The notes beneath the pieces were generated by a model. The model was not told the DNA's origin. It made no database searches and saw only the letters and a program-made list of their open reading frames with translations. This document shows positions 1,368-18,078 of a stretch of DNA of 41,102 nucleotides, piece after piece (the first letter of the stretch is position 1; each line of letters starts with the position of its first letter). The stretch comes from a virus: positions 1 through 41,102 of the IMG/VR virus record IMGVR_UViG_3300028398_000008; one strand, written 5' to 3'. The position numbers and the translations under genes were made by a program.

Positions 1368-1492
1368 GTGAAAATAATATGTTGACAGCTCCAGCTAAAT
1401 CGGCTCCGCTTCGCTCGTCAGGCAGGCATGCGCCTGCCTCCGCTTCGCTACGGATACCGATTTATCTTCCGCTGTAAACATATTTTTTTCAC
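1368..1492. repeat. 125-bp nested palindromic element, copy 1
   Basis: Lies between portal and scaffold genes. The outer arms 1368-1389 and 1471-1492 are inverted repeats matching at 20 of 22 positions. Inside are a second inverted pair (TAAATCGG / CCGATTTA) and a hairpin GGCAGGC-ATGC-GCCTGCC, with CTCCGCTTCGCT present twice. The core is strikingly GC-rich in an AT-rich genome. In the sense of late transcription it carries CGTAG-N8-AGGCAGGC followed by CTGACG, exactly as copy 2 at 12920-13042 does. The right arm overlaps the portal stop codon. It could be an RNA processing or attenuation structure, or a small mobile palindrome. Confidence 0.85.
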
Positions 1493-3351
1493 TTGTTCTG
1501 CGCTTCTTGACTAGCTTTTTGCAACAACTCAAATGCAATAGCTTTTTGCTGGTCGTCTAATTTATCCCAAGGATTCTTAAACTTAAACTCACCGGGATTA
1601 ATTCTGGCTCCTTGCATCTCCAAGGAAAACTGCATCATACGAACAACGTCATACTGTTCTTGGCTCCTCCTACTTTGCAATGTATACTGAATCATCTTGT
1701 CTATCGTATCTTGCACAGCAATAAGGTCAAGGCCTTTAAGCCCGTCAGAAATACCTATTTTAATCTTCGACTCTTTGAAGGCAGCAGCGCTGAGCTCTAC
1801 CTCTTCGCCATCAGGCCCTATAACAGTAATAGTAGGCTGCAAAGCCATAGTATTCTGCGTCATTATATAATGGCCAATTGTAAGCGCCTCTTCAGAAATA
1901 GCTTTAGCAATAGCAAAAATCGACCTAGACGCAGCATTAGATACTACACGACTTTGATGACTACCGGCTCGATTAAGCGAAGCCATAACTTGCGTAAGAT
2001 CAGTAGGTATCATCTTCTGCAAGAACTGATGAATAGCGGCAATTTCATTGTCTAGGCTTGCATGTCCTTTATTTTCCTGAATTACTGCAACTGCGTTCTG
2101 AATAGGAAATCTTCTGTCATCATTGTCCCTGCTCACAGGTATCCAACCAGTAGAAGGATCTTTAATCTCATTTAGCCGGATCATATCTTGGTCGTATAAT
2201 TTCAGGCCACCGTAGACAGAATTGCGCAAGTCTTTAATCCCCAAGTTCCAGTAGTTGCTCATCAAATCTTGGAAAGGAATTAAGAACTCAGACAAGCCCT
2301 TAGAATTAAGCCAGCCATCCATTGCCTTAGGTGATGTTATTCCAATCGGCAATACACCATGATGCTCAGCAACTCTTTCTGCCCTGATTATTCGAGTAGC
2401 ATTAAGAATGTTAAAGCGCCAAATCTGATAGTCCTTATCAGCGCCTAGTCCCCATTCAGATGGAACAAGCCGATGGCAAATAGTAATGACTTCGTTCCTA
2501 CCAGGTTTAGTCAAGTCGACAGTCTCGCCAGTGCTAAGAAAATTATGCAGCTGGAACCCAGCTCTTTTGTCCTTGTGGCAATCAGAGAACCAGCCTTTAG
2601 GCCGAATAGCAGGTCTGTCAAAATAATGCTCTCCAAACTGAGTATTAATATGATCGTCAGCGTCAGAGTATAAGTCTTCATCAAAGAAGAAATATCCTTC
2701 ACGCTTCTTCCGCTCAAGATAGCGACTAGTCTTTCTGTCGACATACCCGTAGTATTCAGCTTCTAAGGCATAGTTATCAACAGGTGCCGCATAATCCAAA
2801 ATTAGATTATAAGGATCTAAATAAGACACAGCGCTTCCAGTCCGAACGACCATTGCTCCGGCTAAATCTTCGCGCCAATTGTATTCTACAGCGCCAAGAT
2901 TAAAGACTACAGCAGAAGTAACCATCTTTTTATATGCTGTGTAATGACCAAATTCCTCAGCATGTTGGTTAAGGACACTAGAGAAAGCTGCAGCAATATC
3001 TTGCCTTTCTTTCTTAAGCTCTAATGCACCATACATACGCCCTGGAGGAAATAGAATATTCATCACATTAGTAATAACATCTTCAAGATGCCCTAATGCA
3101 ACAGTATATTTTTGCTCAGGAATTGCTGTGGTCTGATTGTCTAACTCTCGTCGCTGTAATTTTTCCTCATTCGCGGAAAGTTCCAGATATCCGTTAAGCT
3201 TTTTTGTGATAACACTATATCTGGCGACAAGACTTTCTCTGACAGTCCTATTTCTATTGACAGAGGCTAGCAAGAAATCAAGCAGCTTTTTATGTTTATC
3301 TGCGCTTAATTTAATTCCGTTTGCGATTTGCATTTTGCCTTTTCTAGCCAT
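1489..3351 (-). CDS. Portal protein (head-tail connector)
   Basis: A 620-residue protein directly after the large terminase, of the size and place expected for a podovirus portal, the dodecameric ring through which DNA is packaged and ejected. The stretch near residues 90-115 (LEDVITNVMNILFPPG, then MYGALEL) resembles T7-type head-to-tail connector proteins (PF12236), and the C-terminal third is helical and Gln-rich. Start ATG 3351 has TAGGAG upstream, inside the end of the terminase gene, so the two are probably translationally coupled. Its stop codon lies within the right arm of palindromic element 1. Assignment is by gene order and family resemblance. Confidence 0.85.
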   Translation of the reverse strand: MARKGKMQIANGIKLSADKHKKLLDFLLASVNRNRTVRESLVARYSVITKKLNGYLELSANEEKLQRRELDNQTTAIPEQKYTVALGHLEDVITNVMNILFPPGRMYGALELKKERQDIAAAFSSVLNQHAEEFGHYTAYKKMVTSAVVFNLGAVEYNWREDLAGAMVVRTGSAVSYLDPYNLILDYAAPVDNYALEAEYYGYVDRKTSRYLERKKREGYFFFDEDLYSDADDHINTQFGEHYFDRPAIRPKGWFSDCHKDKRAGFQLHNFLSTGETVDLTKPGRNEVITICHRLVPSEWGLGADKDYQIWRFNILNATRIIRAERVAEHHGVLPIGITSPKAMDGWLNSKGLSEFLIPFQDLMSNYWNLGIKDLRNSVYGGLKLYDQDMIRLNEIKDPSTGWIPVSRDNDDRRFPIQNAVAVIQENKGHASLDNEIAAIHQFLQKMIPTDLTQVMASLNRAGSHQSRVVSNAASRSIFAIAKAISEEALTIGHYIMTQNTMALQPTITVIGPDGEEVELSAAAFKESKIKIGISDGLKGLDLIAVQDTIDKMIQYTLQSRRSQEQYDVVRMMQFSLEMQGARINPGEFKFKNPWDKLDDQQKAIAFELLQKASQEAQNK

Positions 3352-3352
3352 T

Positions 3353-4825
3353 TTAGGCTCCTATTAAATTAGCCATATCAGGAACAATCTTATACTCATC
3401 ATATCCTGGGTCAAGAATTTCTTTCATTATGTGACCGTATACGCTCTTCATTTGATATAAATAGGCAATGCAGTCAATAGTATCATCGTCATTATGCGAT
3501 GACGTTACGTCGTAATCTATTAATTCTTGCACGATATGCAAATCAGCCGGTGTAAGTCTATATTCACCTGACTTAAGCATACCTGCCCACAACGCAATTC
3601 TAGACGACTTTGATTTATTACCTGTTTTCAGAGGAACAAAGCGCATATTAAATCGCCCAGCGCGCTTAGCTTCAGTCTCACAAATAAATAATAAGGCGGA
3701 TTGATAGGCTACAGCCTCAATGCCTACAACATTAATTTTCCAGCGATTAGCAATTTCCATTATCTTTTTGTATAACTGATAGGGATCTTTGCCAATCTCA
3801 GCGTAATCTTCTAATAAGACCCAGTATCCATCTTCAGTTAAACCATGCGCGGTGATAGATGCCTTGTGCGCGTGCTTTTTATTCTGCGTAATAGCAGGAT
3901 CAACAGTCATACAGCGATAGACAAGCCGCTGTGAATTAGGTTCTGGCCTATCTGTGAAATGGATCTCAGCCGGATCAATTAATTGTGTTAACGTGTTTGA
4001 AGGAATATTAAGCATTTCAGCCATCCAAATGCCTAATTTCCCATGATGAATATACTCCAATAGATCAGCTTTGAGACTTTCTAGTGACCATCTAGCAGGC
4101 CATAAGACTTCTCCATTTGGCAGGAAGGCGGATAGACGCAGCGATTTCCAACTAGGCGAGGACAAATTATCAGCTAAGATAGAGTTCTGATTGACTAAGT
4201 TGCCTATTTGAATAATCTTATTCCTTCTTCGATCTAGTGCTTTTATAAATGTGCCCATAAACCAATCAGATATTTTCTCATACCCGGCAAGAGTCTTCAG
4301 CTCTTCTGCGCTCTCCAAATCGTCTACAATTGCCAAGTCAGGACGCTGATTGCCGATGTTGAGACCACGAACTTGTTTACCAGCGCCAATGGCAACCATA
4401 GCTATTCTTTTATTTCTCCATGTGAATTCATATCTTCCTTCACCTGGCCTATGCACGTGGATAGTAGGTTCACCATAGATTGCAGTAACATCCGGTCTCG
4501 TAATGAAATTGAACACATCTTTCAGCGCATTAGCTGCAATGGGCGTAGTATTAGATACATAAATGGGAAAAGAGTAATTTGAATATGCCAATAAGTAGAA
4601 AATAGCAATTTTGGCTAAGGTGGTCTTTGCGTGGTCACGAGGAATAGCTACACAGACGCGCGGTTCATCTTTGTCTACCATCAGCGAGAATGTATAGACA
4701 TGAAAATCAGGCACACCTTTCTCGATGCCCTCTTGGTCAGATAAGAGAAACAGCAATAAAGCGCGATAGTCTATGCGGAATAGCTCTAATAGCTTATCGC
4801 GATCTATGGCAATCTGCTTAGCCAA
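3353..4825 (-). CDS. terL: Terminase large subunit (packaging ATPase/nuclease)
   Basis: A 490-residue DNA packaging motor. Residues 61-70 (IPRDHAKTTL) form the variant Walker A loop, 164-169 (LAIVDD) the Walker B acid pair. The RNase H-fold nuclease shows the MTVDPA strand at 306-311, VVGIEA at 366-371 and a C-terminal acidic cluster (HNDDDTIDC). The start is TTG 4825: AAGGAA sits 7 bases upstream, no ATG is available in the first 40 residues, and the frame opens there. It overlaps the end of the preceding gene by 8 bases, suggesting coupled translation. All catalytic elements look intact. The packaging mode (headful or terminal repeat) cannot be read from it. Confidence 0.93.
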   Translation of the reverse strand: MAKQIAIDRDKLLELFRIDYRALLLFLLSDQEGIEKGVPDFHVYTFSLMVDKDEPRVCVAIPRDHAKTTLAKIAIFYLLAYSNYSFPIYVSNTTPIAANALKDVFNFITRPDVTAIYGEPTIHVHRPGEGRYEFTWRNKRIAMVAIGAGKQVRGLNIGNQRPDLAIVDDLESAEELKTLAGYEKISDWFMGTFIKALDRRRNKIIQIGNLVNQNSILADNLSSPSWKSLRLSAFLPNGEVLWPARWSLESLKADLLEYIHHGKLGIWMAEMLNIPSNTLTQLIDPAEIHFTDRPEPNSQRLVYRCMTVDPAITQNKKHAHKASITAHGLTEDGYWVLLEDYAEIGKDPYQLYKKIMEIANRWKINVVGIEAVAYQSALLFICETEAKRAGRFNMRFVPLKTGNKSKSSRIALWAGMLKSGEYRLTPADLHIVQELIDYDVTSSHNDDDTIDCIAYLYQMKSVYGHIMKEILDPGYDEYKIVPDMANLIGA

Positions 4826-5387
4826 AGGAAGATTCCTTCTCTGGTTCTAAGTCTATGCTAAATTCGGCAAGATCAGAGGATACCTTCTTCGGAGCGCTAT
4901 CTAAATCAACGCCGAGCAGCTCACTAGCTTTTGCCGCAGTTAGAGTTACATCTTCAGGCACATCTACTTTAGTTTTAGAGATATGGTCGAAAAGTTCATT
5001 CCCGATAGAGATGAAGACCACATTTCCGTTTGAAGAAAGGTTACCGCCTTCCTCTTTCTTATCTACTTTGCGCTTTGCAGAATTGGCCATCTGTGCCATC
5101 CTTAACATCGTAGGCGTATCTAGTTCAAGATAACCTTTATCTAAGTCTTCGGCTACTGAAGCTAGAGTTCCTCTCTCAACTTTGTTCCATAGGTCATCTA
5201 TTTCTAAGTCTTCGACTACTTGGGAGGAGGAGGCCTCTTGAAGAAGGCGCTGATAGTCTTCTTCTCTGATTAAGGATTCGTAATCTTCTTCGGTTAGACT
5301 AAGAGTGAACCTGATTGCTTGGGCAGGAATGGCGCGTGCGGCTAGTCCGGCAGCCGCTTCAATGATGGATTTATCAAAATTGCTCAT
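4818..5387 (-). CDS. Putative terminase small subunit
   Basis: First gene of the late operon, 189 residues, immediately upstream of and overlapping the large terminase. The N-terminal 45 residues contain Ala-rich helices (SIIEAAAGLAARAIPAQAIR) that could be a DNA-recognition helix-turn-helix. The middle and C-terminal parts are strongly acidic (EEDYESLIREEDYQRLLQ, and EFSIDLEPEKE). Small terminases bind the packaging site and regulate the motor; here the role is inferred from position and size, since this family is poorly conserved. AAGGAG lies 8 bases before ATG 5387, and a sigma70-like promoter lies at 5409-5437. Confidence 0.65.
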   Translation of the reverse strand: MSNFDKSIIEAAAGLAARAIPAQAIRFTLSLTEEDYESLIREEDYQRLLQEASSSQVVEDLEIDDLWNKVERGTLASVAEDLDKGYLELDTPTMLRMAQMANSAKRKVDKKEEGGNLSSNGNVVFISIGNELFDHISKTKVDVPEDVTLTAAKASELLGVDLDSAPKKVSSDLAEFSIDLEPEKESSFG

Positions 5388-5408
5388 TTTCCTGACTCCT
5401 TTTGCCTT

Positions 5409-5437
5409 ATTATATTATATTTTTGCTAAGTTGTAAA
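5409..5437 (-). promoter_or_regulatory. Sigma70-like late promoter
   Basis: On the minus strand a -35 box TTTACA (5432-5437), a 17-base spacer and a perfect -10 box TATAAT (5409-5414) precede the first late gene at 5387. A second overlapping TATAAT lies at 5414-5419. This is the only strong promoter seen for the structural operon. A GTAATTT direct-repeat site (5452-5469) and phased T-tracts (5491-5520) lie just upstream of it. Confidence 0.7.
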
Positions 5438-5451
5438 GCTAGAGATACCAT

Positions 5452-5469
5452 GTAATTTTTATGTTATTT
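5452..5469 (+). promoter_or_regulatory. GTAATTT-N4-GTTATTT direct repeat (putative operator, site 1)
   Basis: Two GTAATTT-like heptamers with 11-bp periodicity (GTAATTTTTATGTTATTT, one mismatch in the second), centred about 25 bp upstream of the late -35 box. The same arrangement occurs at 7241-7258, 7604-7621 and 13089-13106. The spacing places both half-sites on one face of the helix, as expected for a dimeric regulator. No regulator gene has been assigned. Confidence 0.5.
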
Positions 5470-5480
5470 TGTTGCCGAGT

Positions 5481-5524
5481 GCCTAGTTTTTGAAATTTTT
5501 TGAAATTTTTTGAAATTTTTCTAG
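5481..5524. repeat. Three 10-bp phased T-tracts (likely bent DNA)
   Basis: The unit TGAAATTTTT is repeated three times without a mismatch at 5491-5520, preceded by CTAGTTTT and followed by CTAG. T-tracts repeated every 10 bp are known to give intrinsic DNA curvature. The block lies between the late promoter (minus strand) and the promoter of the first plus-strand gene, so it may act as an UP-element or as an architectural spacer. Confidence 0.8.
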
Positions 5525-5555
5525 AAAATATTTTTGTTGGTATTATATTAACACA

Positions 5556-5590
5556 CCCCCTGTCAATTTAGCTTGGGGGAATAGCCCCCC
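5556..5590 (+). promoter_or_regulatory. Mutually exclusive C5/G5/C6 hairpins
   Basis: CCCCC (5556-5560), GGGGG (5575-5579) and CCCCCC (5585-5590) follow each other, so the G run can pair with either C run but not both (loops of 14 and 5 bases). If transcribed from a weak promoter-like element around 5522-5549 (TAGAAA, 16 bases, TATATT) this would resemble an attenuator. No downstream U-run is present, so termination is unproven. Confidence 0.35.
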
Positions 5591-5662
5591 TTAGGCAACA
5601 CGCAAAACTTATTAGATTAATTCCAATAAGCAAAGATACTTATATTTTTTGTGCTTAGCCTA

Positions 5663-5690
5663 TTGACTATCATAGAAAAACATGTAAATT
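5663..5690 (+). promoter_or_regulatory. Sigma70-like promoter for the 172-residue gene
   Basis: TTGACT (5663-5668), a 16-base spacer and TAAATT (5685-5690) lie about 45 bases before the start codon at 5736. The -35 box is near consensus, the -10 box is moderate. The gene behind it ends at a strong terminator, so this looks like a single-gene transcription unit. Confidence 0.5.
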
Positions 5691-5735
5691 GCAATTAGGC
5701 AATAATGCCGCAACTCAATGAAGAGGATTAAGAAA

Positions 5736-6254
5736 ATGACTTCTATTTACACCAACACAGTTGTCAAAAACGCGGCGATTGCCGCGTATGCACAGCATGA
5801 AGCTGGTTCTGCTATCAACTTAGCTACTTTTGCAGATGCAGTAGCAAGATTGATTATCGCTCAAAAAAATGACGCATTCTGTCATGTTAGGGGAACAGCG
5901 TTTTTTAAGATTATTGAAGACGGCCCAATTTACTGGAGAATGTTTATACTGGCCAATCTAGGGCAGGAGTTAGCAGAAAGAATTATGGATAATGGGGGAT
6001 ATTATAATTCTCCATGGCCTAATGGTGCATGGCGCGCAAAGCGCACAAGGCGTGTATGCTTTCCGGATGGGAGCTACGATGAGGAATACACGTGGAGAAT
6101 TGTTCCATATGACAGAAAAAAGAAAAAAATTGTCATAATCACGATATCTGATACGATTAGCATCCCACGTTTCCAAAATAGGTATACGCCGCGTGATCCG
6201 CTAATTGAAATAAATCGCCCATCTACACTAGTTGAATGGAAAACCATCGACTAG
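5736..6254 (+). CDS. Unknown protein, 172 aa, single-gene unit
   Basis: I do not recognise this protein. It starts MTSIYTNTVVKNAAIAAYAQ, has an Ala-rich helical N-terminal third, a central part with aromatic residues (YWRMFIL, YYNSPWPNGAW) and a basic stretch followed by a hydrophobic strand (KKKKIVIITI). No signal peptide or membrane segment is seen. Start ATG 5736 was preferred to ATG 5718 because AGAGGA lies 8 bases before it. The gene has its own promoter and ends just before a double bidirectional terminator, facing another unknown gene. Its place between the early and late operons is typical of accessory genes such as anti-defence or host-takeover factors, which is a suggestion only. 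Confidence 0.8.
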   Translation: MTSIYTNTVVKNAAIAAYAQHEAGSAINLATFADAVARLIIAQKNDAFCHVRGTAFFKIIEDGPIYWRMFILANLGQELAERIMDNGGYYNSPWPNGAWRAKRTRRVCFPDGSYDEEYTWRIVPYDRKKKKIVIITISDTISIPRFQNRYTPRDPLIEINRPSTLVEWKTID

Positions 6255-6264
6255 CAAACAAAGA

Positions 6265-6327
6265 AAAAGGGAATAGGTTTTGCCTATTCCCTTTTCTATT
6301 TGCCCTAGGAAATTAGTTTCCTAGGGC
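6265..6327. terminator. Two tandem bidirectional intrinsic terminators
   Basis: First hairpin: 13-bp perfect stem 6265-6277 / 6283-6295 (AAAAGGGAATAGG with loop TTTTG), giving T-rich tails on both strands. Second hairpin: 11-bp perfect stem 6302-6312 / 6317-6327 (GCCCTAGGAAA, loop TTAG) followed by TATTTTG on the plus strand. They sit between two convergent genes (ending at 6254 and 6342), so transcription from both sides is stopped here. Confidence 0.9.
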
Positions 6328-6341
6328 TATTTTGTGTCAAG

Positions 6342-7076
6342 TTACAGGTCAAAATCAAGGTCTCCAATACCTTGATCCTCAACCTTGTCATGCCGGTGAT
6401 TGCGCCAATGTTCGATAAACCTTGTATCATAAGGCTTGCGCGCCCCGTCTTTGTCTTCGTGCTGATGATTTTCAGCATAAGACTCCAACGCGGAAAAGAC
6501 TTTCTCTGCGTGTTCATCAGTGAACCACGGGAAAAGGCTTTCCGCGTAATTCGCATTTTCTAGACACTCTCTCAAGTCTTTTACGGAAAAGGCAAGAGTC
6601 TTGCCCTGTGCCTTTGCCGCTTCCTTAAATCTTTTTACAATCGCGCTACCCAAATCTGTAAGCAATTGCGTGTTGAAGCGCCGGTTTCCAGCCGCGGAAA
6701 TTTTTTCGGCTGGTTTCAACCAGCCGGCCACATCCGCTGGAAGGCGCGCGGCAATAGCCGCACACTTGCCATTCTTGGCAAGTTTTGCCGCTGGGGTAAA
6801 GATTTTCCTCGCAAAAGCGCTTTCCAGCAAACTGGAGATAAAATCATGGGCCCCCGTATTTGCCATCACCTCTTTGAGTGATGGGGTCTCGACGATTACA
6901 GCGCAAAGATCATAGGCGCGCCCCATGACCACGCGTCCGACAGTAAGCCCATCATCCCCGATGTTGGAGATGATTGAATCGGTATCATAATCGGCCACAA
7001 AGCCCATCATTTTTTCCGTCACTTCAGCTTTGTTCTCTTCAGTAATGGTCACAGGGCCAAACTTTGTATCAGTCAT
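6342..7076 (-). CDS. Unknown protein, 244 aa, compositionally distinct accessory gene
   Basis: Not recognised. The gene is visibly richer in G+C than its surroundings (for example around 6680-6780), and it is a single-gene unit with a good promoter (7113-7141) and shared terminators, which together suggest acquisition. The protein starts MTDTKFGPVTITEENKAEVT, has an Ala-rich helical middle (residues ~85-170), a His/Glu/Asp-rich region (ESYAENHQHEDKDGARK) and ends in an acidic tail, GIGDLDFDL. Acidic tails with a terminal aromatic/hydrophobic residue are known in single-stranded DNA-binding proteins, but no OB-fold signature is evident here. AGAGGA precedes ATG 7076. A direct repeat flanks the promoter and may serve self-regulation. 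Confidence 0.85.
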   Translation of the reverse strand: MTDTKFGPVTITEENKAEVTEKMMGFVADYDTDSIISNIGDDGLTVGRVVMGRAYDLCAVIVETPSLKEVMANTGAHDFISSLLESAFARKIFTPAAKLAKNGKCAAIAARLPADVAGWLKPAEKISAAGNRRFNTQLLTDLGSAIVKRFKEAAKAQGKTLAFSVKDLRECLENANYAESLFPWFTDEHAEKVFSALESYAENHQHEDKDGARKPYDTRFIEHWRNHRHDKVEDQGIGDLDFDL

Positions 7077-7101
7077 TGTTCTATTCCTCTATAAGGGTTA
7101 A

Positions 7102-7172
7102 TCGACAATTCCTTTATAGCGCAATTCGCCAAAAACTGCAATAGGCAAAACGCAAAAATATTCGACGATTCC
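7102..7172. promoter_or_regulatory. TCGACRATTCC direct repeat flanking the 244-aa gene promoter
   Basis: TCGACAATTCC at 7102-7112 and TCGACGATTCC at 7162-7172 match at 10 of 11 positions and are exactly 60 bp apart. The first overlaps the expected transcription start of the minus-strand promoter, the second lies upstream of its -35 box. This is the layout of a two-site operator allowing looping, but function is inferred. Confidence 0.45.
7113..7141 (-). promoter_or_regulatory. Sigma70-like promoter for the 244-aa gene
   Basis: On the minus strand TTGCAG (7136-7141), a 17-base spacer and TATAAA (7113-7118), about 35 bases before the start codon at 7076. Both boxes match the sigma70 consensus well. 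Confidence 0.65.
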
Positions 7173-7240
7173 AAAAAATCAACGCAAATAATTTTCTCAT
7201 TCCAATTTTTACATTTCCCAATGTTTAACGCATAATCGAA

Positions 7241-7258
7241 AAATTACAGGCAAATTAC
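7241..7258 (-). promoter_or_regulatory. GTAATTT-N4-GTAATTT direct repeat (site 2)
   Basis: Read on the minus strand it is GTAATTTGCCTGTAATTT, two perfect heptamers 11 bp apart. It lies about 100 bp upstream of the minus-strand promoter at 7113-7141 and inside the repeat-rich noncoding region. Confidence 0.5.
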
Positions 7259-7603
7259 ACTAAACCAGAACATTAACGCAACATTTTCCGCGCACTCCCC
7301 AAACATGCTGTAATCTGTAATGAAATTCCTGTAACAAAAAGACTAATCGCGTAATTTCATTTCCCAATGCCGCATAATCTAATCAATAAACAAAGACAAA
7401 GAATCTATGACTAACGCCTTAAAGAAAAAATTACAAAATCTTTGAACCCCCCTATTTGCCGACAGTCAAACGCGTTTAATCTTTATTATTACGCATTTAG
7501 ACTAAAAATTACACCTATTTCATCACAAATTACGGCATGTCCCACCATTCCCTATAAAATGTTCCGCCTTTGTTCCAATTTTCTCGCAAAAATCCCGTTT
7601 TCC

Positions 7604-7621
7604 GTAATTTCTGCGTAATTT
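7604..7621 (+). promoter_or_regulatory. GTAATTT-N4-GTAATTT direct repeat (site 3)
   Basis: GTAATTTCTGCGTAATTT, two perfect heptamers 11 bp apart, ending 5 bases before the -35 box of the early promoter. This is a position from which a bound protein could activate or block RNA polymerase. Confidence 0.55.
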
Positions 7622-7626
7622 TTCCC

Positions 7627-7655
7627 TTGACCATCGCATCACAATCCGCTATTCT
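7627..7655 (+). promoter_or_regulatory. Sigma70-like early promoter
   Basis: TTGACC (7627-7632), a 17-base spacer and TATTCT (7650-7655), some 30 bases before the first early start codon at 7686. It is the only good promoter ahead of the plus-strand block that includes the SF1 helicase. Confidence 0.7.
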
Positions 7656-7685
7656 GCCCAAAACAATCAACAGGGATTGCCAAAA

Positions 7686-8336
7686 ATGAATCCTTTCCTG
7701 ATTCTATCTTCATGCCCATCATTCAATCCGCGCACAATCGACGCGGATTCGCTAATCGTAGATTGTCAATCCGGAATACCTATCGCATCCGGGCCGTCAG
7801 AAACAATCGCAACAAACTTGCGATTGCGCAATTCTTGCCCATTAGCAAAATTAATCTATGCCCTAGTCCAAGCAATGGGCAAAGATTTTCGAATCGCTTT
7901 CAAAATCCAAACACTCGAAGAGCAAGCGCAATTCCTGGCAGACGTCTATTCGCTTGCATCACTAGATACCTCTTTACCAGAAACAATCGCAACAATTTCT
8001 TTTTCCCTGAAAGAGCATCCACAAAAGACAATAGAAATGCTCAAAAAAACGCAATTTTCCTTGATAGAAACAGCAATTCACCTAGAAGACTATTGGTTGT
8101 CTTTGGCCAATGCCCTATTACCTGCAAGAGAAAATAATCTAGAATTAATCGTTTGGGCAATAGAACAATCTACGCCAAAAGCAAAGTCAAGAATAGAAGG
8201 AAAATTGGTTCCAGTAAATCAAAAGAAAGAATCTTACTCAATTCACGATTTGCCCTCACAAATCAGGGCAAAAGCGAAAGCGAAAAAGGCAATAAAAGAA
8301 AACTTCATTGCCAATGAATTAAAAGGCCTATTCTGA
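7686..8336 (+). CDS. Unknown early protein, 216 aa
   Basis: First gene of the early operon; not recognised. It starts MNPFLILSSCPSFNPRTIDA, has a helical, Leu-rich middle (residues ~45-165) and a basic Ala/Lys-rich C-terminal region (QIRAKAKAKKAIKENF) that could bind nucleic acid. Start ATG 7686 has CAGGG 10 bases upstream; a TTG three codons earlier is less likely. Its stop overlaps the helicase start (TGATG at 8334), so the two are coupled in translation. As the first gene behind the early promoter it may be a replication initiator or a host-takeover factor; neither is shown by the sequence. Confidence 0.8.
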   Translation: MNPFLILSSCPSFNPRTIDADSLIVDCQSGIPIASGPSETIATNLRLRNSCPLAKLIYALVQAMGKDFRIAFKIQTLEEQAQFLADVYSLASLDTSLPETIATISFSLKEHPQKTIEMLKKTQFSLIETAIHLEDYWLSLANALLPARENNLELIVWAIEQSTPKAKSRIEGKLVPVNQKKESYSIHDLPSQIRAKAKAKKAIKENFIANELKGLF

Positions 8337-9865
8337 TGAGCTTTTTCACAAAGGCGAAAGCCAAAGCAAAAGCCAATTCTAATCTCACAGATCAGCAAGC
8401 TATGGCACTAGAAAATGCCTTGCGCTATCAGCACTCTTTGCTGATAGGCTATGCTGGAACAGGTAAGACATTCACAGCAAAAGCCATTCTCGAAAGGCTT
8501 TCGAAAGAATATGAAGAAACTAATTTAGGCTTTGAGCATCTGGCCTTGCCGCAGGCGCATTTTCCAATAGCAATTTGCGCCTATACAGGCATGGCAGTTT
8601 CCGTCCTAAAAGACCATACAGGCAATGAATGGGCGCCCTACTGCTATACTATTCACAAACTAATAAATTATGCGCCAGAATTGATTGAAACAAAACCGTC
8701 AAAAGCGGATATTGCAAATGGCGCTGATCCATTAGTGCCAATAATCAAGAAAATCTTCACCCCGCACAGAAATAAAGCTTGCCAGTTAACGGGACTGCGT
8801 TTCCTAATCGTTGATGAAATATCAATGATCCCGCCAAATCTTTGGCAAGAGCTGATGGACGCAATTCCGTCCGATTGCAAAATCTTATGCATCGGAGATT
8901 TAGCACAATTGCCGCCAGTCATGGGCTCTTCAATCATGCCCGAATTGGCAGCAGAATGGCCAACAGTCGAATTGACAAAAGTATTTAGAACAAAAGTTTC
9001 CCTGATTATAAACAATGCCCATGCAATCAGGCAAGGCAAAGCACCAGAAAAAGGCGAAGATTTTCAAATCTTAGGCATTTCTGCAAAGGCGCATCTTGCG
9101 CAACAACAGATAATTAATTTTTTTAATAATGCACAAGATTATGACCATGAACAGGATATTATCTTAACCCCGCTAAATGGAACACCAGTAGGGCAGGAAC
9201 AGCTTAACCAGCTGCTACGCAAAATTAACAACCCATCGGCAAAGGTGCGCATAGTAAAAACAATGCGCAATACAAAGCGCTTTGCCATCGGTGACCGAGT
9301 TATGACAACAAAGAATGACGCAGACCTAGGCATTTTCAATGGGCAATTGGGCAAGATTGTATCAATCGTGCGCAATGCACAATCAGGCTTTATTGCGGAT
9401 GAAGATCATTCATCCGAAAACTTGTCTATCTCTTTTGACACAACAGCAATATCTGCATTTAGCACAGATGAAGACGGAACCAGCGAAAGACTGGCTTCTC
9501 ATTCAATTGAGGTTTTATTCGATAATGGAGAAACCATCTCTTTCTCAACGTCTAATCAAATTGAAAATCTTCAGCTTGCATGGGCAATTACTGTCCACAA
9601 AGCGCAAGGCTCTGGATTTCGTCATGTATATATAATCCTGCATAATGCCCATGCAAGACTACTGAATAATGAAATACTCTACACCGCTGTAACTAGGGCA
9701 AGAGAAAAAGTGACCATACTTGCAACATCCTACGCGATTAAAAAAGCTATCACTAATCAGCTAATAAAAGGAGCTACTCTTGAAGAGAAATTAGCGGCTT
9801 TTCAAAAGAAAAATGCACCTAATCTAACCGCTCAAAAATCAATCGCATTCGGGAAGAGCAATTAA
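8336..9865 (+). CDS. SF1B DNA helicase, Dda/RecD2-like
   Basis: ATP-dependent 5'-3' type helicase of 509 residues. Walker A GYAGTGKT at 38-45, Walker B VDEIS at 159-163, motif III GDLAQLPPV at 187-195, motif V-like VHKAQGSGF at 420-428 and motif VI YTAVTRARE at 449-457 (UvrD_C_2-type) are all intact. The GDxxQLPPV and VHKxQG forms are characteristic of the RecD2/Dda/Pif1 branch. The N-terminal ~15 residues are an AKAKAKAK low-complexity tail, continuing the same kind of sequence found at the end of the preceding protein. It probably assists replication start or fork restart; a second, DnaB-like helicase candidate is encoded at 21776-23089. Confidence 0.93.
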   Translation: MSFFTKAKAKAKANSNLTDQQAMALENALRYQHSLLIGYAGTGKTFTAKAILERLSKEYEETNLGFEHLALPQAHFPIAICAYTGMAVSVLKDHTGNEWAPYCYTIHKLINYAPELIETKPSKADIANGADPLVPIIKKIFTPHRNKACQLTGLRFLIVDEISMIPPNLWQELMDAIPSDCKILCIGDLAQLPPVMGSSIMPELAAEWPTVELTKVFRTKVSLIINNAHAIRQGKAPEKGEDFQILGISAKAHLAQQQIINFFNNAQDYDHEQDIILTPLNGTPVGQEQLNQLLRKINNPSAKVRIVKTMRNTKRFAIGDRVMTTKNDADLGIFNGQLGKIVSIVRNAQSGFIADEDHSSENLSISFDTTAISAFSTDEDGTSERLASHSIEVLFDNGETISFSTSNQIENLQLAWAITVHKAQGSGFRHVYIILHNAHARLLNNEILYTAVTRAREKVTILATSYAIKKAITNQLIKGATLEEKLAAFQKKNAPNLTAQKSIAFGKSN

Positions 9866-9866
9866 C

Positions 9867-10499
9867 ATGGAAAAGATCAAAAAGAAAATTGCAGCCTTAC
9901 TCGCAAAGACAAAAGAAGCGGGCTGCACAGAACAGGAAGCACTTGCAGCTGCCAAGAAGGCACGCGATCTTCTAGATAAATATAACTTATCAATCCAAGA
10001 CATTGCAATCGCAGAAGACAAACCAGAATACAAACGCGAATATGTATGTCCAATCAGAAAGCGGCCAAATCTAATTATTAGACTGGCAAATGCTGTGTCT
10101 CTTTACACAGACACATATGCGCTGCGAACGAAAGATGGTTTTATTTTCTTTTATGGGAAAGAGCTGGATACCTATTTCGCAGCTAATCTGCTAACGCAAT
10201 TGGAAGCCTGGATCTTACAAGGTGCACAATTCATCTATGGCAGAGAAGAGCTAAACTCCTACTTTGTAGGTGCACTTGCCGCAATCAACAATAAACTAAT
10301 CGCAGCCGCAAGGAAAAGAGAAAAAGAGTCTCTCTTGCCAGTAGTCCAAACAAGGGAAAATGCAAAGCGCAAGTTTCTTGAGGAAAATAACGTAAGCACA
10401 GCAAAGATTAAAAATTTAAGGGCCAAGAACAGAGCTGCCTTTAGTTTTGGCTACGAACACGGCAACAGGGCACAGATCAGAAAGGGCATTGACAAATGA
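9867..10499 (+). CDS. DUF2786-domain protein
   Basis: A 210-residue protein whose first ~45 residues (KIKKKIAALLAKTKEAGCTE, then EALAAAKKARDLLDKYNLSI) match the pattern of DUF2786, a small helical domain common in phages and bacteria with unknown biochemistry. The remainder has alternating strands and helices, and the last 60 residues are strongly basic (KREKESLLPV, ENAKRKFLEENN, KNLRAKNRAAF), pointing to nucleic-acid contact. It begins one base after the helicase stop and its own stop overlaps the next start (ATGA at 10496). Its place next to the helicase suggests a helper in DNA metabolism. Confidence 0.75.
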   Translation: MEKIKKKIAALLAKTKEAGCTEQEALAAAKKARDLLDKYNLSIQDIAIAEDKPEYKREYVCPIRKRPNLIIRLANAVSLYTDTYALRTKDGFIFFYGKELDTYFAANLLTQLEAWILQGAQFIYGREELNSYFVGALAAINNKLIAAARKREKESLLPVVQTRENAKRKFLEENNVSTAKIKNLRAKNRAAFSFGYEHGNRAQIRKGIDK

Positions 10500-10765
10500 A
10501 CAATGAAGTCATAGCCCGATTTGCTAATAGCTATCAAGAGTTTCCTGTCGAAATTAATGTTAAAGGAGTAGAAAGGACCATCTGTTTTAGTAATCTTGAA
10601 CAAAGACTAAATGAACATGTGCGCAAACTTCGTTCAATGATGGGTGAAAATGTGCGTATGATATGCACACAAGTAACTACAACAACCCTAACAGTATCAT
10701 TCCCAGATCAATTTCCATTTGCACTATTCTTTATCACAGTAACGCCTAAAGCAAAGGAGAAATAG
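10496..10765 (+). CDS. Small unknown protein, 89 aa, paralogue of the next gene
   Basis: Function unknown. It shares a layout with the 99-residue product of 10770-11069: the same first four residues (MNNE), then FA, a P-V-x-I strand, an LEQ-x-L helix, VR-x-IC, and an FFI strand near the C-terminus. This points to an ancient tandem duplication. No membrane segment or known motif is present; the fold is likely a small alpha/beta domain. The start overlaps the stop of the DUF2786 gene. Confidence 0.75.
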   Translation: MNNEVIARFANSYQEFPVEINVKGVERTICFSNLEQRLNEHVRKLRSMMGENVRMICTQVTTTTLTVSFPDQFPFALFFITVTPKAKEK

Positions 10766-10769
10766 GCAA

Positions 10770-11069
10770 ATGAACAACGAAGCAACAATCAAGCAGTTTG
10801 CGGCACAATTCACCATGCCTGTGGTAATAACTACTCACGGGCACAAAGCAGAATTCGTGCTCAAGGAGGTATGCCAAGCAAAGCTTGAGCAAAACCTGCT
10901 CGATTACCTGCATGATCTAAAGATAATTGCAGAAGGTAAGATACCTGGAGAAGTGCGCGTCATCTGCAAGATACCTGCCAAAAATGTCCTAGCTATCGAA
11001 TTTTATGACGATCCAGACGCAGTAATGCCATGCACATGGTTCTTCATCAGCATCAAAGAGGAACACTAA
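10770..11069 (+). CDS. Small unknown protein, 99 aa, paralogue of the previous gene
   Basis: Function unknown. Begins MNNEATIKQFAAQFTMPVVI and keeps the same order of short conserved stretches as the preceding gene product: LEQNLLDYLHDLK corresponds to its LEQRLNEHVRKLR, VRVIC to its VRMIC, and WFFISI to its LFFITV. It is about 10 residues longer because of an acidic insert (DDPDAVMP). GGAG lies upstream of ATG 10770. Both belong to a run of six small, tightly packed genes that look like an early-expressed accessory set. Confidence 0.75.
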   Translation: MNNEATIKQFAAQFTMPVVITTHGHKAEFVLKEVCQAKLEQNLLDYLHDLKIIAEGKIPGEVRVICKIPAKNVLAIEFYDDPDAVMPCTWFFISIKEEH

Positions 11070-11070
11070 C

Positions 11071-11319
11071 ATGCATAAAACTACCTACGCCATAGACAAA
11101 ACCGGCAAGAAGTTTATTGTCATATGGGAACATGACGTAAATTTCAATCTGCATGACGCAATCCTAGCTGATTATAATAACGCTAAGCTAATCTCTTTCA
11201 CTACCTGCCAAGATGACAAGTCACCTGTAATCGGACATATACAGCTAGTTGACGGAGAGTCTATACAGTTTTTTTCTGTTTGTGGGAAAAAACTAACAAA
11301 AGAGGAAGTGTGGCCATGA
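11071..11319 (+). CDS. Small unknown protein, 82 aa
   Basis: Function unknown. Mostly short beta strands (KKFIVIWEHDV, KLISFTTCQ, GHIQLVDGESIQFFSV) with two Cys. It starts one base after the previous stop with AGAGG upstream, and its stop overlaps the following start codon (ATGA at 11316). No membrane segment or known motif is seen. The tight packing shows co-translation with neighbours. Confidence 0.7.
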   Translation: MHKTTYAIDKTGKKFIVIWEHDVNFNLHDAILADYNNAKLISFTTCQDDKSPVIGHIQLVDGESIQFFSVCGKKLTKEEVWP

Positions 11320-11564
11320 TTATATACAAATTTTCTCTTAACGTGGGCAGAAATGCCAAAGTCTATCTGCGTTTTCAAGATATGAAGAAAGCTAGGCAAT
11401 TACTGCAAAAGGCAATTGCCAAGGAAAATCTGCAAAACTCGGTTGTCATTCGCAGTTATGGTTACGAAAAAGAAGAGGCAATCCGACCACAACAAGTAGT
11501 CATAACATACGCTGACGGACTAACCTCCAGCTATTTAGTCTGGGCCCTAGAGGAGATGGACTAA
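11316..11564 (+). CDS. Small unknown protein, 82 aa
   Basis: Function unknown. Start ATG 11316 was chosen over an upstream in-frame TTG because it forms an ATGA overlap with the previous stop and has AGAGGAAG ahead of it. The protein begins MIIYKFSLNVGRNAKVYLRF, followed by a Lys-rich helix (KKARQLLQKAIAKENLQ) and two strands. The pattern strand-helix-strand may be a small RNA- or protein-binding fold. Its stop overlaps the next start (TAATG). Confidence 0.7.
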   Translation: MIIYKFSLNVGRNAKVYLRFQDMKKARQLLQKAIAKENLQNSVVIRSYGYEKEEAIRPQQVVITYADGLTSSYLVWALEEMD

Positions 11565-12067
11565 TGCACCTTGTTTTAGACAAAGAAAAGTATGAAGTTT
11601 TCGCAGCAAATACTAGAAGACCTTTGTTTGAAGAATGCCCTCCGCTATCACCGAACGCAATCTTCAGACGCTATGATCTTCTTCACGGAAGTATATTGAC
11701 AGCAGAATGGCCTCGACCTAAACCAACGCGTAAGGCATACTTTTATAGAGCCTATGACGCCAATTGGCTTATCGTCGATGACAAGGTCTATTGGTTGCAG
11801 AGTTACCTTACAGATAGCTATATTTATACACATAAGCTAGCTGCTATGTTATCTCTATTCTGTGATCTAAAATGCAGCGTAAAGACAGAGGACGGCTCGC
11901 GCACGAATAGGGCAACCGCCCTGAAATGGAAAGATCCGCGAGATAAGATTCTCGCAATGCATCTACCGACAGCTAAGTTTATCTTGCGGGATAAACCGCC
12001 AATTATCGGCAACTGGAAAGATGTTCCTCTTGGAACACGAATTGAAAAAGTGAAGGCTTTACCATGA
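11564..12067 (+). CDS. Unknown protein, 167 aa
   Basis: Function unknown. It begins MHLVLDKEKYEVFAANTRRP and has a region rich in aromatic residues (KAYFYRAYDANWLIVDDKVYW, in two adjoining strands) and a basic C-terminal part. It is joined by TAATG to the gene before and by ATGA to the gene behind (start 12064), so it sits in the middle of a coupled array. No membrane segment or catalytic motif is visible. Confidence 0.7.
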   Translation: MHLVLDKEKYEVFAANTRRPLFEECPPLSPNAIFRRYDLLHGSILTAEWPRPKPTRKAYFYRAYDANWLIVDDKVYWLQSYLTDSYIYTHKLAAMLSLFCDLKCSVKTEDGSRTNRATALKWKDPRDKILAMHLPTAKFILRDKPPIIGNWKDVPLGTRIEKVKALP

Positions 12068-12422
12068 AAAATATAAACTAACAAAGATAACGATCTACAT
12101 TGAGTCTACAAAACTTCATAGGATCAAGGCATTGCGAGATATTCCAGAACATGTAGTAAAGAAAGGAGACTTCGACGGATGGGTTGAGAATGAAAACAAT
12201 CTTTCTCAAACTGGCAATTGCTGGATTGCCAATGACGGTATCGCCTTCAAAGGCGGATATGTATTAGGTAACGCTCTAGTCAAAGATCTTGGCATTGTTC
12301 GTGACAGGGCAATAGTTACAGATAACGCGTTGGTCTGCGACACGGCAACAATTACGAAAGGCGCAGCACTTGGCGGCTATAGCAAGGCAATTGATTTTGA
12401 CTACATAAAAGGAGAGCTCTAA
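12064..12422 (+). pseudogene. Hexapeptide beta-helix protein (YdcK-like), frame broken at an A run
   Basis: The C-terminal 96 residues, open from 12132, contain six V/I-x-x-x-A/G-x hexapeptide steps (VLGNAL, VKDLGI, VRDRAI, VTDNAL, VCDTAT, ITKGAA) preceded by KGDFDGWVENENNLSQ. This is the hallmark of phage and bacterial left-handed beta-helix proteins. Family members normally start about 25 residues earlier, and that part (KYKLTKITI, then LHRIKALRDIP) is present in the same frame without a start codon. The expected start is ATG 12064, which overlaps the previous stop as ATGA. From it the frame hits TAA after five codons. A single -1 shift on AAAAA (12067-12071) restores MKKYKLTK. The gene is either recoded, mutated, or carries an assembly error. 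Confidence 0.7.
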
Positions 12423-12571
12423 TGAAAAAGAATTGGTCACTTACGCTCTACTGGCAAAGAGCTAGCCAAAACTGGAAAGTTGACTCGCTTGGGGAAGCGT
12501 TTCGCATCATTGAGCAAAATGCATTGCCTGAACCACCAAAATCAATAACTATCATGAGGATTAAGAAATGA
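12422..12571 (+). CDS. Small unknown protein, 49 aa
   Basis: Begins MKKNWSLTLYWQRASQNWKV and has three Trp in its first 20 residues, with a short Pro-rich part and a basic end (IMRIKK). It is linked by TAATG to the gene before and by ATGA to the gene behind (12568), the same junction style as its neighbours, which is the main support for it being real. Function unknown. Confidence 0.6.
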   Translation: MKKNWSLTLYWQRASQNWKVDSLGEAFRIIEQNALPEPPKSITIMRIKK

Positions 12572-12708
12572 AAATTGAAACAGCAATAATTATCTTATGC
12601 GCAATCTTCTTAGGTTATCTAGGAATTAGCTTATCCAGTTACTGGCTAATTCTAGTAGCTGTAATGTTTGGTTGGGCAATAACAGGGAGAATATTCAATG
12701 GACAATAA
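12568..12708 (+). CDS. Small membrane protein, 46 aa (holin-like candidate)
   Basis: Two hydrophobic segments, TAIIILCAIFLGYLGISL (residues ~5-22) and YWLILVAVMFGWAI (~25-38), separated by a short polar turn, with a basic-polar tail GRIFNGQ. It overlaps both neighbours by a few bases (ATGA at 12568; next start 12698). It lies two genes upstream of the endolysin. A role in lysis timing, or in altering the host membrane early, is possible; a better holin candidate is encoded in the late operon. Confidence 0.6.
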   Translation: MKIETAIIILCAIFLGYLGISLSSYWLILVAVMFGWAITGRIFNGQ

Positions 12709-12916
12709 GACTGAATGGATTGTGTTCGCAGGAGCACGCAATATTTTCTTCATTTGCGACAATGAAGAAATGGCCAAAGAGCTGTGTGCCAACCTTATTT
12801 CTGAGGGCAAGTATGACTTTGTAGAAATGCCAAGACAGATGACTAAACGCGCTGTAAATAAATATGGTGTCAATGATAGCGCCGGACAAATCAACAGATA
12901 TGTTGTCAGTGAGTAA
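12698..12916 (+). CDS. Small unknown protein, 72 aa
   Basis: Begins MDNKTEWIVFAGARNIFFIC and continues with an amphipathic helix (NEEMAKELCANLISEGK) and a basic region. The strand-helix arrangement suggests a compact soluble domain. GGGAGA precedes ATG 12698, which lies within the end of the membrane protein gene. It is the last gene before palindromic element 2 and closes the early array. Function unknown. Confidence 0.7.
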   Translation: MDNKTEWIVFAGARNIFFICDNEEMAKELCANLISEGKYDFVEMPRQMTKRAVNKYGVNDSAGQINRYVVSE

Positions 12917-12919
12917 GCA

Positions 12920-13042
12920 ATGAAAAAATCTCTTGACAAGATTAGCGACTGAGCGTAGTCTGCCGCAGGCAGGCTTTCCGCAGGAAAGGCTGACGGCGCG
13001 CTAGCGCTGGCGAGGGAGCGGCTTGTCAAGAGATTATTTCAT
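12920..13042. repeat. 123-bp nested palindromic element, copy 2
   Basis: Outer arms 12920-12940 and 13022-13042 are inverted repeats matching at 20 of 21 positions. The GC-rich core holds small hairpins CTGCC-GCA-GGCAG and CTTTCC-GCA-GGAAAG and the palindrome GCGCTAGCGC. CGTAG (12954-12958), eight bases, AGGCAGGC (12967-12974) and CTGACG (12990-12995) occur in the same order as in copy 1, with identical spacing between the first two. The arms of both copies also resemble each other (TGAAA, then AT, then TTGACA). It separates the early array from the endolysin promoter and could stop or process transcripts. Confidence 0.85.
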
Positions 13043-13106: not shown

Positions 13107-13147
13107 ATATGTAACAAAACAATTTGAAAGTAATAGGAGCCAGGAAA

Positions 13148-13870
13148 ATGAGTAGACAAACAGTTAAACAAATACAAGCTAATCTAGCAATAATCGGGTG
13201 TAATCCAGGACTGATTGATGGAATTATCGGTCCTAGGACTAGAAGAGCAATAGTTTGCGCAAAGAAAAAAGCAAATTATCCTATAGGAGCTGATACTCCA
13301 GCAGTAGATACTTTCTTTATTAAACAACTTCGAGATATGGTTAAAGAACAGTATAGAAGTCGCCTTGAAGCACCGTATATTTGGATAAATTATGCACATA
13401 GATTTCTAGGCCTACATGAAAGATTTGATAATAAAAAACTTGCCCACTTTCTGCGATCTGACGGATTTACTGTTGGGAACCCAAGGAAGTTTCCTTGGTG
13501 TGGAGATTTCATAGAGACAGTAATGTCTAATTGCGCGATTAACTATTCTAGAAAAGATTGGCATAAAACATTAAGAGCTAATCCATATTGGGCCCGAAAT
13601 TGGGCTTATTATGGAAAGCCAGCGGGAAAAGTTTATGGTGCTGTTGGTGTCTTTAGTCGAGGACCGAGAAGCGGACATGTTGCATTTTTGATAGGTGAAC
13701 GAAAAGGTTATTTCCGAATCCTCGGAGGTAATCAATCAAATCGTGTTAATGAAACCTGGATAGCTAAACGTCGACTACTTGCGGCTAGGTGGCCTGCCCA
13801 TTATCATAATCCAAAGATTATTTTACCTAAAGTTTCGCGCAATGGAAAGGTCTATGGTAACAATGACTGA
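13148..13870 (+). CDS. Endolysin: peptidoglycan-binding domain plus CHAP-like (TIGR02594-type) peptidase
   Basis: A 240-residue cell-wall hydrolase. Residues ~5-45 have the PG_binding_1 pattern (VKQIQANLAIIGCNPGLIDG, then GPRTRRAI). The C-terminal domain shows PWCGDF at 116-121 with the likely catalytic Cys118, SGHVAF at 176-181 with the likely catalytic His177, and ILGGNQSN at 191-198, the combination seen in TIGR02594 CHAP-like proteins. No signal peptide or membrane segment is present, so release needs a holin. Start ATG 13148 was preferred to an in-frame TTG at 13124 because AGGAG lies between them. Unusually it heads the replication block on the plus strand, far from the holin and spanin genes of the late operon. 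Confidence 0.88.
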   Translation: MSRQTVKQIQANLAIIGCNPGLIDGIIGPRTRRAIVCAKKKANYPIGADTPAVDTFFIKQLRDMVKEQYRSRLEAPYIWINYAHRFLGLHERFDNKKLAHFLRSDGFTVGNPRKFPWCGDFIETVMSNCAINYSRKDWHKTLRANPYWARNWAYYGKPAGKVYGAVGVFSRGPRSGHVAFLIGERKGYFRILGGNQSNRVNETWIAKRRLLAARWPAHYHNPKIILPKVSRNGKVYGNND

Positions 13871-17711: not shown

Positions 17712-18077
17712 ATGGGCAATATAATCGCGCATGTAGTTATCTATCCGCATTGGTCTAATCATACAGGAGTTTATGCCGGAAACATTCATCTAACGGATGA
17801 ATGTTTCAATGCAATCTTAGCGGCACCAGAAGATTTCATCGGCGAAGAACTCGCTGAAGATGGAGTTTATCTTGGGCAAATTCTACAGTCAATGGAAATA
17901 AATGGATTACTTACTGATTTTAATCCGCCGTTTGAAATTGTAGGATTTGCAAAAGGCAGCGGGCAAAATATCCAAGAGATAAGGCAAGGATATTTGGCTG
18001 GTTTGCCAGAAGAAGAACTAATCGAACTAAACAAAAAGAATCTAACTCTGCATTTGAAGCAAACAGGGTGTAACTAA
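17712..18077 (+). CDS. Unknown acidic protein, 121 aa
   Basis: Function unknown. Begins MGNIIAHVVIYPHWSNHTGV and contains an acidic middle (APEDFIGEELAEDGVYLG) and a helical C-terminal part (GLPEEELIELNKKNLTLHLK). It sits one base after the previous stop and one base before the DNA polymerase start, so all three are a single unit. No membrane segment is present. Confidence 0.7.
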   Translation: MGNIIAHVVIYPHWSNHTGVYAGNIHLTDECFNAILAAPEDFIGEELAEDGVYLGQILQSMEINGLLTDFNPPFEIVGFAKGSGQNIQEIRQGYLAGLPEEELIELNKKNLTLHLKQTGCN

Positions 18078-18078
18078 A

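Follow-up and report, generated by a model that had tools for sequence, protein, structure and literature searches.

Two related palindromic hairpins behind stop codons in a podovirus-like phage genome, and comparable hairpins in related phages

What are two long GC-rich palindromes doing between the genes of a phage genome? The window, which is the whole stretch of 41,102 bases that was analysed, contains one of 125 bp (E1, 1368-1492, minus strand) between the portal and scaffold genes and one of 123 bp (E2, 12920-13042, plus strand) upstream of an endolysin gene. The original prediction took them to be related to each other and proposed that they could be mobile palindromes, sites of RNA processing or members of a family of noncoding RNAs. 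We favour the reading that both are transcribed intercistronic RNA hairpins which act in cis on polycistronic phage mRNA, and we give this reading about an even chance.

The record has an exact terminal direct repeat of 127 bases (1-127 and 40976-41102). An open reading frame of 405 amino acids (40381 to 623), by position and size the capsid protein, crosses the join of this repeat. The record therefore represents a complete genome, either circularly closed or terminally redundant. TerL (3353-4825, minus strand), portal, polymerase, primase, helicase and exonuclease mark the genome as podovirus-like, with Pseudomonas phage PaP2 among its distant relatives; TerL is 25-29% identical to the proteins of Polaromonas phage Tiera, EBPR podovirus 3, Pseudomonas phage PaP2 (Fredfastierviridae) and Aeromonas phage P5. 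The original prediction had hoped to learn the host from relatives of the elements in bacterial genomes. This hope failed: no copy was found in the phage and plasmid collections or in Rfam, and a search across genomes with TerL gave no convincing host. The best genome match of TerL was discarded as a pointer to the host; it is the same contig as the IMG/VR locus L018, binned in a Marinimicrobia MAG.

Along the minus strand come TerS, TerL, portal, E1, a putative scaffold of 235-241 amino acids and the 405-codon frame. The portal gene (1489-3351; PHROG portal, E 5e-8) ends with a TGA (1489-1491) which falls within the outer arm of E1, and the scaffold gene (636-1340), assigned by position and size only and with no family match, starts at ATG 1340 preceded by AGGAG (1350-1354), which leaves about 27 bases, AGGAG included, between E1 and the start. 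E2 lies outside any structural operon, which counts against the reading favoured here. It begins 3 nt after the TAA (12914-12916) of a 72-aa open reading frame (12698-12916, plus strand) and is followed by an endolysin-like gene (13124-13870, plus strand, the more likely start being ATG 13149) with CHAP and peptidoglycan-binding domains near the cut-offs and a match to a tail lysozyme PHROG. The predicted placement, in the same sense as transcription on opposite strands and at or behind a stop codon, is thus correct. It should be noted that a near-identical leader, AGGAGYCAGGAAAATGAG, is found before TerS (5383-5408, minus strand) and before the endolysin gene (13127-13152, plus strand), which suggests shared late-gene translation signals.

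In the coding sense E1 is a single long hairpin. Its 5' outer arm, GTGAAAAAAATATGTTTACAGC (1471-1492), contains TTTACA (1473-1478), and its 3' outer arm (1368-1389), which ends in TGTCAACATATTATTTTCAC, contains TGTCAA (1382-1387). The GC-rich core (1408-1452) carries CGTAG (1448-1452), AGGCAGGC (1432-1439) and CTGACG (1416-1421) as well as two GCGAAGC mini-hairpins (1442-1448 and 1408-1414). In E2 the arms at 12920-12940 and 13022-13042 contain TTGACA (12933-12938) and TGTCAA (13024-13029), and the core (12954-13011) carries CGTAG (12954-12958), the palindromes CTGCC-GCA-GGCAG (12960-12972) and CTTTCC-GCA-GGAAAG (12974-12988), CTGACG (12990-12995) and GGCGCGCTAGCGCTGGC (12995-13011). Read in the coding sense both elements start with (A/G)TGAAAAAA, followed by TTTACA in E1 or TTGACA in E2, and both end, after the core, with TGTCAA-NNN-ATTATTT(T)CA. 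The positions, the pairing of the outer arms (20/22 in E1 and 20/21 in E2) and the order of the core motifs, CGTAG, eight nucleotides, AGGCAGGC and then CTGACG, are as originally described; the spacing to CTGACG is 10 nt in E1 and 15 nt in E2.

The GC content is 0.49 for E1 and 0.54 for E2, and 0.59 and 0.67 for their cores, compared to 0.39 for the genome. A strand-neutral palindrome scan ranks the two elements as the top two palindromes in the window. Folding of each element, which the original prediction had proposed as a check, gave -64.8 kcal/mol (z -9.06) for E1 and -59.9 kcal/mol (z -5.77) for E2 with none of 200 shuffles as stable in either case, and the outer stems are predicted to be helices of about 20 bp. 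Same-sense global alignment of E1 with E2 scored 81, against 39.9 +/- 7.4 for shuffles which preserved the arm-core-arm layout, and none of 1000 shuffles scored as high. The antisense comparison is likewise significant because both elements are palindromes. When used as queries against the record, E1 matches E1 alone and E2 matches itself and its own arms alone. E1 and E2 are two diverged, related copies. They are real and non-random, and very likely functional or at least actively maintained; the near-complete hairpin structure of each, its place immediately after a stop codon and the better folding of the coding-sense strand are well supported.

No match was found in the window with Rfam 15 at the gathering threshold, and at lax thresholds E1, E2 and the loci of six relatives gave chance matches only. 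The same was true of blastn searches with E1 and E2 against collections of phages and plasmids, which returned weak chance matches, and no description of these phage hairpins was found in literature searches.

Comparable hairpins were looked for in related phages. Single-sequence scans of IMG/VR with TerL and the helicase found no close relatives, and an alignment of five TerL proteins led to 80 distant loci and two further alignments to more. A strand-neutral search for paired arms found hairpins in L024 (3867-4027), L142 (928-1098; L023/L142), L070 (3521-3689) and L027/L124, and later in L104 (5299-5486), L142 (12217-12374) and L125 (8693-8860). Reading of the gaps behind portal genes added hairpins in L029, L030, L036 and PaP2 (L007; 7145-7270 of NC_005884), together with weaker candidates in L019, L074 and Aeromonas phage P5. 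Altogether there are more than 12 comparable hairpins of 125-190 bp, mostly behind the portal gene or a neighbouring gene. Their 5' arm abuts or nearly abuts the preceding stop codon, the outer arms are A/T-rich, the core is GC-rich with GNA/GNRA or CUUG loops, and TTGACA or a near form stands at the inner end of the arms with TGTCAA opposite, the exceptions being PaP2 and P5. One candidate, L133 13325-13429, was dropped since it lies inside an open reading frame, and matches to the pattern GACCGN{3,6}GAGCCGTAAACA beyond the phage family appear to be coding or chance.

To count the preference for the place behind the portal gene, 180-base windows from 96 phage loci were folded automatically. 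Windows with strong folds (z<-4) numbered 5 behind portal, 1 behind TerL and 1 within portal, and at z<-3 the numbers were 11, 1 and 2. Most of the relatives among the 96 loci have no post-portal hairpin, and it is therefore not essential. Where present it can be well kept: the PaP2 element is found in 16 of 16 PaP2-like records, and the two substitutions seen among the 7 records compared are both compatible with pairing.

Do these hairpins form one family? A covariance model of L029, L030 and L036 finds L070 (E 3e-4) and L125, and blindly finds a hairpin in L016 (14254-14396) which has the expected build and lies directly behind a gene. A combined model (R3) finds L124 and its near twin L128, unused in building the model, at E 1e-18. 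A subfamily in seven phages (L029, L030, L036, L070, L124, L125 and L016) is thus solid. The combined model does not find E1 and E2 at E<=10. The covariance search from the two copies, proposed by the original prediction, could be carried out, but its model (R1) had as best outside matches L125 and L142b, on the sense strand, at E 1.4-2.9 only. Little primary sequence is common between the phages beyond TTGACA and the loop motifs. E1 and E2 join the class by anatomy, position and strand bias; common descent with the other subfamilies is not demonstrated.

In two subfamilies of the relatives' hairpins many stem pairs have changed on both sides. In L029, L030 and L036 double compensatory changes are found in 12 of 42 predicted pairs (0 of 500 shuffles), and 96.8% of the cells pair, with no shuffle or slid control near this value; in L070, L124 and L125 such changes are found in 12 of 58 pairs. 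These counts are biased upward because the alignments hold only three sequences each and the structures were derived from those same alignments. The elements of L104 and L142 are mostly different yet paired, whereas their flanks are 82% identical; they share only TTGACAGG, a GCGCGYAAGCG hairpin, a CCSGCTTGCSGG hairpin and AATTTTCCTGTCA. That the relatives' hairpins keep their pairing through compensatory changes is well supported. The original prediction had named a lack of such changes in the outer stems of relatives, or chance sequence of like kind, as grounds against it, and this test did not refute it: such changes are present, though measured on the relatives' own elements, as orthologues of E1 and E2 were not found.

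The two strands are not equal either. The coding-sense RNA folds better than the antisense RNA in all 15 elements compared outside P5. The mean difference, sense minus antisense, is -11.3 kcal/mol (14 of the 15 elements) against -2.75 kcal/mol for coding controls (p 8e-6), and for the subset of six elements found strand-neutrally it is -8.2 kcal/mol (p 0.012 against coding controls); the coding controls share part of this bias, which is seen in 68% of their windows. There are 64 G-U pairs in the sense folds and 21 in the antisense folds, and the apical loops of the sense strand belong to the GNRA, CUUG and C(GNA)G classes. GCGNAGC, a heptamer, is found 16 times in sense and 3 times in antisense where 1.1 would be expected from the flanking DNA, an excess which is partly due to GC content.

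A hairpin acting in the mRNA is the simplest account of the elements because of their placement at stop codons, the coding-sense bias and the arms which vary while they stay paired. A role in RNA processing, or as a family of noncoding RNAs, is accordingly the better supported of the options originally proposed, with the sense-fold bias, the compensatory changes in relatives and the recurrence at the portal/scaffold boundary in its favour. The outer double helix of more than 20 bp could be cut by host RNase III, or it could shield the mRNA ends. A message parted at the stop codon would leave two halves which decay at different rates. At E1 the portal protein, of which few copies are made, would thereby be uncoupled from the scaffold and capsid proteins, of which many are made, and at E2 the parting would close the early transcript ahead of the endolysin unit.

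The strongest competitor is that the elements are selfish mobile palindromes, DNA of the MITE, REP or GC-cluster kind, which inserts at gene ends, is tolerated and is mobilised in trans. E1 and E2 are indeed related and on opposite strands of one genome, and L142 has a further copy, which lies in a different operon on the other strand and has motifs in common with its post-portal copy; the relation of L142a to L142b parallels that of E1 to E2 as related copies within one genome. A comparison of L029 with L028 also points in this direction. Their TerL proteins are 93% identical and their DNA is 85% identical up to the portal stop, and L028 is without the whole hairpin of about 146 bases present in L029: both flanks align, and the portal stop codon of L028 runs directly into the ribosome-binding site. 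The multi-copy P5 hairpins with a shared apex and different stems can be listed here as well. The best reading of these data is that hairpins are gained or lost as modules between related phages. As for mobility proper, there is no clean target duplication at the L028/L029 site, no transposase was found and the ends of E1 and E2 are without TA. Stems which vary between copies yet pair are not expected from the insertion of a fixed unit, the orientation is nearly always coding-sense, and the element is retained at the same place in phages which are 80-82% identical (L070/L124 and L104/L142). The mobile palindromes of the original prediction have some support from the related copies and the presence/absence variation, and we consider the selfish explanation possible but rather unlikely.

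Less probable is a device working at the DNA level, a cruciform or single-stranded DNA hairpin used in origin function, recombination, packaging or promoter-like recognition. The outer arms of E1 and E2 are also near-perfect palindromes as DNA, with near-perfect complementarity of both strands, which counts against a reading as RNA only. GCGNAGC mini-hairpins are known for their high stability as single-stranded DNA, TTGACA is similar to a -35 box, and some of the P5-type palindromes have TTGACA-17-TAnnAT pointing outward. In E1 and E2, however, TTGACA faces the GC-rich core, no -10 hexamer is found at 16-18 nt and no promoter was called, and TTGACA was rejected as a promoter there. The bias in sense-strand folding and in G-U pairs also speaks against a DNA device, as does the position of both elements away from the strand-switch points of the gene map.

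Equally improbable is that the elements are bidirectional or regulated terminators or attenuators which lower read-through between operons. They do follow stop codons directly and have T-rich 3' arms, for example TTTTTTTTT in L104 and GGTTTTTT in L029. The U-rich stretch is however paired in the A/T-rich base of the stem, where an intrinsic terminator has a GC-rich stem directly followed by a U run, and E1 and most of the others lie inside the structural operon before the scaffold and capsid genes, where the gap behind E1 is too short for a promoter. The original prediction doubted that they were simple terminators, and the terminator scans bear this out by calling none at E1 or E2 though they called other sites. 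Two strong back-to-back hairpins of the intrinsic terminator type (14 and 11 pairs) are found at 6264-6327; the phage uses ordinary terminators as well.

An excised small RNA acting in trans, for instance on host RNases or virion assembly, would suit compact, stable hairpins of 125-190 nt with loop motifs, releasable by double-strand cleavage at the base, but with so little primary sequence common between phages outside TTGACA and the loop motifs, its lack in many relatives and no Rfam match even at lax thresholds it is very improbable.

The P5-type hairpins are kept separate. Aeromonas phage P5 (L262) has at least four long T-shaped intergenic hairpins (4937-5142, 12077-12253, 17951-18119 and 45052-45237) which have the apex GTCAAGGG..CCCTTGAC in common while their outer stems are unrelated, besides weaker hairpins, and the perfect motif is found in 18 IMG/VR contigs, mostly within similar hairpins. 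Their position and apical loops are like those of E1 and E2, but a merger was rejected for the outward TTGACA, the weak strand bias and the resemblance of some copies to divergent promoters; they are a neighbouring phenomenon. Palindromes of the form TTGTCAAGGG..CCCTTGACAA occur in 18 viral contigs, among them L279 (772-822 and 1624-1674), L266 and L276. In L279 and L266 both arms have an outward TTGACA-17-TAnnAT-like spacing, and these could possibly be divergent promoters built as one palindrome. Two spacers of PaP2 (L261; 1892-2268 and 43141-43469) have strongly strand-biased folds (z -6.8 on the minus strand, -120 vs -79 kcal/mol).

Several known systems resemble the hairpins in part. Phage T7 has several intercistronic RNase III sites, hairpins in the transcribed orientation which partition long mRNAs; E1 and E2 are like them in a predicted double-stranded RNA of about 20 bp or more between cistrons which are presumably transcribed together, and differ from them in their greater length and in being palindromes with a GC-rich core of several hairpins. 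Yeast mitochondrial GC clusters are GC-rich palindromes. They are described as mobile GC-rich elements of an A/T-rich genome with presence/absence variation (PMC4478555); they belong to another replicon, and no common sequence or mechanism is shown. The ERIC/IRU element of enterobacteria, an intergenic palindrome of 127 bp, is co-transcribed with both neighbours in an orientation-dependent way, and the upstream message has been proposed to be less stable than the downstream one (PMC2229807). E1 and E2 are imperfect intergenic palindromes of almost this length, and ERIC is the nearest functional precedent. ERIC has TA ends and target duplications (PMC2229807) and many copies per genome, whereas here two diverged copies end in GTGAAA/TTTCAC (E1) and ATGAAA/TTTCAT (E2), and blastn of E1 and E2 against the phage and plasmid collections found no convincing relative. 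The Correia/NEMIS elements (CREE) of Neisseria are small mobile units of up to about 157 bp whose inverted-repeat ends form a hairpin in mRNA which is bound, and sometimes cut, by RNase III when the ends are symmetric (PMC2649163). E1 and E2 also have inverted ends, predicted to form helices of about 20 bp which RNase III may cut, but CREE have defined terminal repeats, promoters and an IHF site (PMC2649163), whereas the outer arms here vary freely while paired and no promoter was found in E1 or E2. REP elements, palindromes of 20-40 bp with an unpaired GTAG or CGTC tag at the foot, lie at the ends of genes, and a role as RNA has been proposed for them (PMC3733652). Both E1 and E2 contain GTAG and GACG, the complement of CGTC, but they are far longer, GTAG stands next to the stem only in E2, and no REP-associated transposase is known here.

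What is new is that putative intercistronic palindromic mRNA elements, in themselves a known kind, are found here in phages and are absent from Rfam. A bolder proposal, which we regard as possible but rather unlikely, is an undescribed class of mobile RNA hairpins which would move about phage operons between stop codons and ribosome-binding sites, with an outer stem that changes in sequence but stays paired, and would fix the relative expression of adjacent structural genes; the P5-type T-shaped hairpins would be a wider branch. In tailed phages a single operon has to supply about a dozen copies of the portal protein and hundreds of copies of the scaffold and capsid proteins, and a recurring hairpin, gained and lost at the portal/scaffold boundary, would be a simple and testable device for setting this ratio. 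Since the hairpins occur in phages which can be cultured (PaP2-like phages and Aeromonas phage P5), the transcript ends could be mapped. The finding would extend small palindromes of the ERIC and Correia kind from bacterial chromosomes to phage genomes.
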